A stretch of 64,000 nt of DNA. Origin: Vicingaceae bacterium. Its GTDB lineage: Bacteria; Bacteroidota; Bacteroidia; Flavobacteriales_E; Vicingaceae. Each line of letters starts with the position of its first letter. The first letter of the stretch is position 1. Position numbers and translations under genes: made by a program. Shown here in pieces: positions 19,645 through 23,429 of this stretch. The stretch is taken from contig JAOKVV010000007.1 of assembly GCA_028336925.1 (NCBI GenBank), positions 1 to 64,000 of the forward strand, in the 5' to 3' direction. A model generated the notes under the pieces. It ran no database searches. It had not been told where the DNA came from and saw only the letters and a list, made by a program, of their open reading frames with translations.

Positions 19645-19652
19645 TACTTTTG
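19645..19652 (+). promoter_or_regulatory. -7 element for the glmU-like gene (TACTTTTG)
   Basis: Exact TAnnTTTG match that covers the track's TTG start at 19650. It favours the ATG at 19671. Confidence 0.45.
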
Positions 19653-19670
19653 GTAGTCAAATATAATTTT

Positions 19671-20864
19671 ATGAATATTATCCTTTTCGACGATCATTAC
19701 AGAACTGAATTGCTGCCACTTACTTTTATGCGGACTGCTGCACAACTTAGAATAGGAATAGATACTTTAGCCGAAAAGTGGGGCAGGTTACTTGCAGAAG
19801 AAATAGAAACAGGAGCTGCTGAAATCTCATATTTAACAGAGGATTATCTATCTGAAAAGTTTGGAGTCTGTTACAGCGCTGAAAATATTTATATCAATGC
19901 ACGAATAATTCCAACGATTGAACTATTGGAATCGATTAAGAAGCTTCAAGAAAAGGAAGTATTATTCTTAAACGATGAAATCATCGCATTTAAATCTGTT
20001 GAAGAGCTTTCTTACACGGAAGTTCAAGAAATAGAAGGAACAAAATTAGTTGAATTTGATCTATTATTAATTCATCATTGGAGCGATTTGTTTATACACA
20101 ATGGGGAAGTTTTAGTAGCTGATTTTAATCAAATTACTGAAGGTAGAATCTCTGAACCAATTGAAGAATCTAATCGAGTAATAGGTGATAATAAGTTGAT
20201 CTTTATTGAATCAGGGGCTTCAGTGGAAACGGCCATTTTAAATACGAAGAATGGACCGATTTATATAGGAGTAAATGCAGAAATAATGGAGGGAAGTATT
20301 GTGCGTGGGCCTTTTGCTATGGGAGAGGAATCTACCTTAAAATGTGCTTCTAAAATTTATGGGCCTACTACATTAGGTCCGCATTGTAAAGTAGGAGGAG
20401 AGGTCAATAATTCCATCCTGACGGGTTTTTCCAATAAAGGGCATGAAGGCTTTTTGGGTAACTCCGTGATTGGGGAATGGTGTAATTTAGGAGCAGATAC
20501 CAATAATTCTAATCTAAAGAATAACTACAGTTCAGTAAGTTGTTACAACTATACCACTGAAAAAATGGAGGACACCAGTTTGCAATTTTGTGGATTAGTG
20601 ATGGGCGATCATGCTAAAAGTGGAATAAACACCATGTTTAATACAGGAACTGTGATAGGTGTTTGTGCTAATGTTTTTGGTGGTGGATTTCCTTTGAAAC
20701 ACATTCCAAGTTTTAGTTGGGGTGGAAGTGATGGTTTTGAAAAATTTCGATTAGATAAAGCTTATGAAGTAGCACAGCGAATGATGGAACGCAGAGGAAT
20801 GGATTTATCTGTAGAAGAGGAACAGATATTGAAATTCATTTTTGAGCATTCAGAAATTGATTAA
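19671..20864 (+). CDS. GlmU-like sugar-1-phosphate nucleotidyl/acetyltransferase (alternative bacterial GlmU)
   Basis: 397 aa from ATG 19671; the earlier TTG sits in the -7 box. The N-terminal half starts MNIILFDDHYRTELLPLTF and resembles the divergent nucleotidyltransferase domain of the Bacteroidota alternative GlmU family. The C-terminal half is a left-handed beta helix with hexapeptide-type repeats (IYIGVNAEIMEGSIVRGPFA onward) and an acetyltransferase-like NTGTVIG segment. It probably supplies UDP-GlcNAc for peptidoglycan and LPS. The canonical pyrophosphorylase motif is not visible, so substrate is inferred. Confidence 0.75.
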   Translation: MNIILFDDHYRTELLPLTFMRTAAQLRIGIDTLAEKWGRLLAEEIETGAAEISYLTEDYLSEKFGVCYSAENIYINARIIPTIELLESIKKLQEKEVLFLNDEIIAFKSVEELSYTEVQEIEGTKLVEFDLLLIHHWSDLFIHNGEVLVADFNQITEGRISEPIEESNRVIGDNKLIFIESGASVETAILNTKNGPIYIGVNAEIMEGSIVRGPFAMGEESTLKCASKIYGPTTLGPHCKVGGEVNNSILTGFSNKGHEGFLGNSVIGEWCNLGADTNNSNLKNNYSSVSCYNYTTEKMEDTSLQFCGLVMGDHAKSGINTMFNTGTVIGVCANVFGGGFPLKHIPSFSWGGSDGFEKFRLDKAYEVAQRMMERRGMDLSVEEEQILKFIFEHSEID

Positions 20865-20890
20865 TTTGACAATATTGCCGATTAACTAAA

Positions 20891-20907
20891 TTGGCACAAC
20901 CCTTGAA
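20891..20907 (+). promoter_or_regulatory. Sigma-54-like -24/-12 promoter upstream of lon
   Basis: TTGGCACAACCCTTGAA has an intact TTGGCAC -24 block, correct spacing and TTG of the -12 block. It deviates from YTGGCACGrNNNTTGCW at two positions, including GC to GA at -12. The predicted start is about 65 bases before the lon ATG. Confidence 0.5.
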
Positions 20908-20959
20908 TAATGGGGTGAAAGAATTAGAATAAGGCGGAGAACATAATTTTTCTGCCATT

Positions 20960-21001
20960 ATGACTAAAAAGAGAAAGGATATACATGAAGAAGAGCTTTG
21001 A
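20960..21001 (+). other. Short leader ORF overlapping the lon start
   Basis: ATG at 20960 opens a 13-codon frame ([16 protein letters not shown] at 20999-21001) that overlaps the first codons of lon in another frame. Translation of it could couple to or interfere with lon initiation. No independent evidence that it is translated. Confidence 0.3.
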
Positions 21002-23429
21002 TTTCGACCACTTGAATTTTTCAGAAGCGGTAGATGAAGAAACAGAATTTATACCATTAATGACAACGGAAGACGAGGAGAGTATGAACTCCGAAGAAAT
21101 TCCGGAATCATTACCAATTTTACCTTTAAAAAATACAGTACTTTTTCCAGGTGTTGTAATCCCAATTACTGTAGGCCGAGATAAATCAATTAAATTGATT
21201 CAAGATGCCAATAAGGGTGAAAAGACTATTGGAGTAGTGGCGCAACTTGATGATAAAGTTGAAGATCCGACTATAGAGCAGATGAATAGGGTAGGAACTG
21301 TGGCTAGAATTCTAAAAATGTTTAGAATGCCTGATGGTAATACCACGGTAATTATTCAAGGTAAAAAGCGATTTGAGTTGGTTGAGTTCACTGAGCTTGA
21401 GCCTTATCATAAAGCTACCATTGCCGCGTATGAAGTAGAGGATGTTCCTTCTGATGATGCTTTTGCAGCATTAATAGATTCAATTAAAGATATGTCCTTA
21501 CGGATTATTGATAACTCTCCTAATTTACCATCAGAGGCATCTTTTGCTATTAAAAACATTGATAGTAATGCGTTTTTGATCAATTTCATTGCTTCTAATA
21601 TGAATGCTACTGTTGCTCAAAAGCAAAAGATATTAGTAGAAAAAGATACCAAGGAACGTGCATTGATGTTGCTAACACATTTATCGAAAGATTTACAGAT
21701 GTTAGAGTTGAAAAACGATATTCAGAGTAAAGTAAAAACGGATATTGATAAGCAACAAAAAGAGTACTTCTTGAATCAGCAAATGAAGTTGATACAAGAA
21801 GAATTGGGTGGTAATCCGCAGGAACAAGAAGTAGAAGAATATAAAAAGAAGGCGCTTAAAAAGAAATGGCCTAAAACCGTAAAAGATCGTTTTGAAAAAG
21901 AGCTAGGTAAATTACAACGAATGAATTCTGCTTCAGCGGAATATTCTGTTCAAGTAAATTATATAGAAACTTTAATTGACTTGCCATGGAGCGAATATAC
22001 CAAGGATAAATTCGACTTAAAGCGAGCACAAAAAGTATTGGATCGAGATCATTTTGGATTAAAAGATGTAAAAAAGCGAATAATTGAGCATTTGGCGGTA
22101 CTAAAGTTAAAAGGAGATATGAAATCTCCAATTTTATGCCTTTACGGACCTCCTGGAGTTGGTAAAACTTCATTGGGTAAGTCTATTGCAGAAGCCTTGG
22201 GCCGTAAATATGTGCGTATGTCATTAGGTGGCTTGCGCGATGAAGCAGAATTGAGAGGACACCGGAAAACTTATATTGGTGCAATGCCAGGTAGAATTTT
22301 ACAGAGTTTAAAAAAGACGAAAACATCGAATCCTGTTTTTGTTCTAGATGAGATAGATAAATTGGGATCAGATCATCATGGAGATCCTTCATCAGCGATG
22401 CTAGAGGTATTGGATCCTGAGCAAAATGGTACATTCTACGACAATTTTGTGGAAATGGACTATGATCTTTCAAAGATTTTATTCATTGCTACAGCCAATA
22501 ATTTGGCTTCTATACAGCCTGCTTTGCGCGATAGAATGGAAATTATTGAGATCAATGGCTACACAGTTGAGGAAAAAATAGAAATTGCTAAAAAGCACTT
22601 GATTCCAAGCTTAATTTCATCACATGGAATTAAAAAATCGGATGTAGCTATTTCTAAAGAAGTGATCGAGAAAGTATGCGAAGAGCATACAAGAGAGTCG
22701 GGAGTGCGTGGATTGGAGAAAAAATTAGCGGGCATTGTTCGTTTTGTGGCAAAATCTATTACATTGGAAGAAGATTACAATCCAACAATTTCAGTGGAAG
22801 ATTTACAAACTATTTTAGGTCCTGGTCATTCCAAGGATAAATATCAAGGTAATGATGCAGCCGGTGTGGTTACGGGATTAGCTTGGACATCGGTAGGTGG
22901 TGATATTCTATTTATTGAAACAAGTTTAAGCAAAGGAAAAGGGAAGTTTACATTGACCGGAAATTTAGGGAATGTAATGAAGGAATCGGCCACATTAGCT
23001 TTAGAATACCTGAAGGCTCACGCTGACAAATTGAACCTGACCACAGAAATTTTTGAGAATTGGAATGTTCACATTCACGTGCCGGAAGGCGCTACTCCTA
23101 AAGATGGCCCATCAGCAGGTATCGCTATGCTTACTGCCTTGGCTTCGGCCTTTACGCAGAGAAAGGTGAAGCGAAATTTAGCCATGACCGGTGAAATTAC
23201 ATTGAGAGGTAGAGTGCTACCCGTTGGTGGAATTAAAGAAAAAATTCTTGCTGCTAAACGAGCTGATATCAAAGAAATTATTCTTTCAGCTGATAACGAA
23301 AAAGACATCAATGAAATCGATAAAGCTTACGTAAAAGGCTTGAAATTTCATTATGTTACTGAGATGATTGATGTGATAGAATTGGCATTATTAAAAACGA
23401 AAGTGGATAATCCGATAACGATTAGTTAA
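20985..23429 (+). CDS. lon: ATP-dependent Lon protease
   Basis: 814 aa, normal for LonA. N-terminal substrate-binding domain ([19 protein letters not shown]), coiled region, AAA+ module with Walker [10 protein letters not shown] and Walker [10 protein letters not shown], then the C-terminal protease domain with catalytic serine in DGPSAGIAM and lysine in [14 protein letters not shown]. It degrades misfolded and regulatory proteins in the cytoplasm. A sigma-54-like element and a small leader ORF lie upstream, and a strong terminator follows. Confidence 0.97.

Follow-up and report, generated by a model that had tools for sequence, protein, structure and literature searches.

A conserved sigma-54-type promoter upstream of lon in a Vicingaceae bacterium, and a recurring dyad as its candidate enhancer

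The switching of chaperone and protease genes in Bacteroidota is poorly described, and the lon locus of this Vicingaceae bacterium raises the question of which RNA polymerase, and which regulator, starts transcription of the gene. The window (the whole stretch of DNA that was analysed, 64,000 nucleotides long) corresponds to contig C61 of a 1.75-Mb assembly that is 69.8% complete. Its Lon protein is 88-93% identical to those of Acidiluteibacter ferrifornacis and of a metagenome-assembled 'Vicingaceae bacterium', which are placed in the same genus; Acidiluteibacter belongs to the Flavobacteriales, Bacteroidota, according to NCBI. Upstream of lon, TGGCAC is followed by TTG at the distance of the sigma-54 consensus (14 bp, from the T of TGGCA to the G of TTG), with an A instead of a C as the next base. 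When re-read, the element proved to be exactly as a sequence-only reading had claimed, in its letters and in its spacing (Table 1). It is located 27 bp beyond the end of the upstream nucleotidyltransferase gene and 78 bp before the lon ATG at 20985. The transcription start predicted by that reading is also the value that we obtain from the sigma-54 spacing.

Table 1. The lon locus and its predicted control elements (positions in the window)
Feature	Position	Strand	Basis or remark
Sugar nucleotidyltransferase gene (PF13562), co-directional, upstream of lon	19650..20864	+	
Weak upstream dyad copy, TGACAATATTGCC	20867..20879	+	Offset of -25 from TGGCA, as for the strong grpE dyad
Sigma-54 -24/-12 element of lon, TTGGCAC-AACCC-TTGAA, TTGGCACAACCCTTGAA	20891..20907	+	Motif, spacing, conservation
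Predicted lon transcription start (+1)	20918	+	Inferred from the sigma-54 spacing rule (12 nt after the -12 position) and the mapped lon start of F. psychrophilum
Predicted 5' leader of the lon mRNA, 67 nt	20918..20984	+	Folds, with a hairpin over part of the dyad
Dyad of lon, TGCCATTATGAC (TGNCA-N3-TGNC)	20953..20964	+	Starts at +61 from TGGCA, inside the leader; candidate downstream enhancer
lon, ATP-dependent protease, 814 aa, all Lon domains	20985..23429	+	

Within the 64-kb window, TGGCAY-N5-TTG matches once with 1.15 matches expected, which is not significant alone, and allowing one mismatch gives two matches with 4.07 expected. The same pattern is present upstream of lon in all 30 same-family loci, seven of which, with ATTG or GTTG, were judged by eye. 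Across 80 named Bacteroidota loci the strict motif precedes lon in 49 (0.2 in dinucleotide shuffles; 0-3 with wrong spacings or reversal) and the relaxed form TGGYA-N7-TG in 70 (3-5 with wrong spacings), although the relatives share ancestry and these counts, like the others given here, overstate independence. On these sequence comparisons the lon motif is clearly beyond chance, and it is phylogenetic footprinting that decides this, not the window statistics. The footprint also bears on the -12 position, where GA had been named as the sole departure from the consensus: the base is indeed an A, but an A follows TTG in 41 of the 49 strict lon motifs, so that in this lineage a -12 element without the C is normal and no defect. 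Genome-wide scans with TGGCAYRNNNNTTGNW gave few matches per genome, about twice the number in the reversed control (5 versus 2; 9 versus 4); a scan with so short a pattern is therefore uninformative, and footprinting gene by gene was used instead.

Chaperone genes had been suggested as a place to look for the same motif, and this genome carries it upstream of groES (TGGCATAAAATGTGA), grpE (TGGCAAAAAAGTTGA) and dnaK (TGGCATAAACATTGC). Among the genes examined, TGGYA-N7-TG precedes 24 of 29 groES, 17 of 18 grpE and all 17 dnaK genes; lon probably belongs, with these genes, to a sigma-54 regulon for protein quality control. Sigma-54 control of lon is already known from Flavobacterium psychrophilum, where the start of lon (THC0290_0994) was mapped by 5'-end RNA sequencing at an SM4 (sigma-54) promoter, and where the gene falls into one expression cluster with groESL, dnaK, grpE-dnaJ and htpG (PMC9723704). 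Gene, promoter class and gene company are the same as here, in a different family; in its promoter section, that study mentions neither an enhancer motif nor a responsible activator. For Flavobacteriia and Bacteroidia, a survey from 2025 (PMC12316311) found an enrichment of predicted sigma-54 promoters at the genes for Lon (COG0466), GroES/EL, GrpE, DnaK and DnaJ. It is matrix-based and, in the available portion of its text, contains no enhancer site, activator assignment or positional analysis. Because the lon element is conserved across tens of families, is common to the groES, grpE and dnaK genes of the same genome and has a mapped sigma-54 counterpart at lon of F. psychrophilum, it is very probably a promoter recognised by sigma-54 (RpoN) RNA polymerase.

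At grpE, an ATG farther upstream (MRKLSICRYFKFGKK...; G000:C12, and likewise in G002) begins a reading frame that runs without a stop through the gene's sigma-54 promoter. Gene callers may thus start grpE too early, the promoter implying a later start.

A sigma-54 promoter raises the question of its sigma factor, and a genome without rpoN had been named beforehand as grounds for abandoning the promoter. We did not find rpoN in the 69.8%-complete assembly, but it is present in both 99%-complete genomes of the same genus and in 57 of 60 relatives; its absence is for this reason most likely a gap in the assembly, and the organism probably has the gene. One genome of the same class, G053, is 100% complete and has no detectable rpoN; its lon gene is without the sigma-54 motif, and it is a natural case of loss of the regulon. 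The presence of rpoN does not predict the lon motif perfectly: four class members (G070, G077, G078 and G079) have rpoN and miss the strict motif at lon, and in the reverse direction G076, an assembly of 460 contigs, has the motif at lon and no match to rpoN.

Near these promoters a second element recurs, the dyad TGNCA-N3-TGNC, the positions of which are given from the T of TGGCA to the start of the dyad. It is present at 41 of 80 lon, 20 of 29 groES, all 18 grpE and 6 of 17 dnaK loci, while controls with altered half-site spacing gave mostly 0-3 and at most 6 per gene; the dyad was first noticed in the sequences in which it was then counted, a circularity that the spacing controls and the additional genes partly answer. 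In grpE the dyad starts at -25, in groES at about -68, -77, -88 or -98, and in dnaK mostly at -88 when one mismatch is allowed. The lon dyad has its start at -25 in several lineages; in others, the family of the window among them, the start is at +50/51 or +60/61, and a few have it farther downstream. With each genus counted once, the groES positions follow a period of about 10.25 bp (R = 0.91, p < 5e-5; 20,000 uniform draws never gave so high an R); helix phasing is less clear at lon. Such phasing is how a protein site facing the polymerase would behave, and a sigma-54 enhancer could work from such varied distances. In each of the six genomes scanned, lon is the single place where promoter and downstream dyad are combined; the reversed control has no such place. 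As a finder of other regulon members the composite pattern failed, returning lon only, since the remaining genes have their dyads at different positions.

Two full-length PF00158 proteins are encoded in this genome. The first (G000:C47) is the full NtrC-family activator that had been sought: it has 423 residues, a GSFTGA loop, a Walker A motif and a Fis-type helix-turn-helix (HTH_8), and no receiver domain. Its gene is flanked by miaB and lptE and shares its strand with groES, which lies downstream. The order miaB-activator-lptE upstream of groES is kept in most of the relatives examined, the activator being matched in 16 of 20, a count limited by contigs or stretches that end too early. From sequence, it is about an even bet that this protein pairs with the TGNCA-N3-TGNC dyad. 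The second protein (L009:1081-2247; G000:C12), of 388 residues, combines a receiver with an AAA+ domain of the NtrC family, has GAFTSA instead of GAFTGA and lacks a helix-turn-helix; its way of acting on sigma-54 may be atypical. With its altered loop and no DNA-binding domain, it is unlikely to be the activator of lon and was set aside.

Putting these elements together, sigma-54 polymerase would wait at the lon element as a closed complex, to be opened by an AAA+ activator of the NtrC type, most likely the miaB-lptE protein. The activator would most likely bind the dyad, 25 bp upstream of the -24 element at grpE, about 77, 88 or 98 bp upstream at groES and about 88 bp upstream at dnaK. At lon, its site would be 61 bp downstream of the -24 element, with the weak copy at -25 in addition, and the lon promoter would be opened together with those of the chaperone genes. 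We infer the binding of the dyad by the activator, the signal that it senses and the induction of lon by heat, damaged protein or other stress in this bacterium. With a probability of roughly 0.5, then, a single NtrC-type activator without a receiver, the gene of which this class of Bacteroidota carries between miaB and lptE ahead of groESL, governs lon, groESL, grpE and dnaK through the dyad, an enhancer that has moved between lineages in steps of a helix turn and that acts at lon from within the transcribed leader. If this is true, an activator occupies the place held elsewhere by sigma-32, HrcA/CIRCE or CtsR. A lon promoter found in many families, a candidate enhancer and a linked candidate activator make up a testable model with named sites. 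Neither the dyad nor the assignment of the activator was found described in the literature searched, the main texts from part of the journals; to our knowledge, the recurrence of the dyad at these promoters, its place on one helix face at groES and its position downstream of the start at lon are new.

Some of the observations fit an enhancer less comfortably: sites for such activators usually lie farther from the promoter than a dyad centred near -45, a downstream site is unusual, and the strict dyad is present at only the minority of dnaK genes given above. It is possible, though unlikely, that the dyad is instead the operator of a repressor or other regulator, comparable to the CIRCE heat-shock operator. 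Its centres, adjoining the polymerase at about -45 or lying just past the start at about +41, are also typical positions for a repressor. However, the dyad recurs at sigma-54 promoters at many distances, both upstream and downstream, and in helix-turn steps at groES. A sigma-54 promoter moreover requires a site for its activator, and inspection showed no further element in common. The geometry of the half-sites also argues for an enhancer: NorR, an activator of sigma-54 promoters, uses as its enhancer the inverted repeat GT-(N7)-AC (PMC1274295, PMC4987338), which has the same core spacing as GTCA-N3-TGAC here, a likeness of geometry and not of membership. NorR has a GAF domain that senses nitric oxide, and tandem sites at norVW, whereas Pfam shows no N-terminal sensor domain in the candidate activator, and the dyads lie beside chaperone and protease genes.

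We consider it improbable that the downstream element of lon works as RNA, as a leader hairpin or thermometer acting on translation, in which case its spacing from the promoter would only reflect a place near the 5' end. The predicted lon leader does fold into a strong hairpin that overlaps the dyad (-14.5 kcal/mol, z about -4 to -4.7), and hairpins of variable sequence recur in members of the family, but across 47 leaders z averages only -1.3. The same dyad lies upstream of the start, and thus outside the RNA, at groES, grpE and dnaK. Within the family of the window, the lon dyad keeps a fixed distance to the promoter (59-61) and a variable one to the ATG (23-59 nt).

It is very improbable that lon is driven by the housekeeping sigma factor of Bacteroidota (TTTG / TAnnTTTG), with a TTTG at 20865-20868 and TAAATTGG at 20887 forming a weak promoter and the -24-like element being an accident of overlap: the sequence does contain TTTG-N18-TAAATTGG, its -7 box off by one mismatch, but neither of the two same-genus relatives retains this box, TAnnTTTG before lon is at chance level (14 of 80 loci versus 15.1 in shuffles) where the sigma-54 form is found in 49-70 of 80, and lon of F. 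psychrophilum starts at a sigma-54 promoter. The box, which overlaps the -24 element, is the best match to TAnnTTTG before lon, in agreement with the earlier statement that no housekeeping -7 box could be found there. A scan for promoters of the sigma-70 style was likewise discarded, giving 7 sites with 6.1 expected.

The sigma-54 promoter need not be the only source of lon transcripts. The upstream gene is on the same strand and ends at 20864, and no terminator was found between this end and lon; read-through from it is therefore possible and may provide some basal expression of lon. Of the sequence-only reading's proposal that lon depends on RpoN and an activator and not on the housekeeping sigma factor, the sigma-54 promoter is upheld, while exclusive dependence is too strong a claim. 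At groES (G000:C47), the dyad at -88, TGTCAGAATGTCA, also forms one arm of a hairpin that resembles a terminator, TGTCAGAATGTCATATTCTGACACTTTTTTT; a regulatory site and the terminator of the preceding gene may thus be combined in one sequence.
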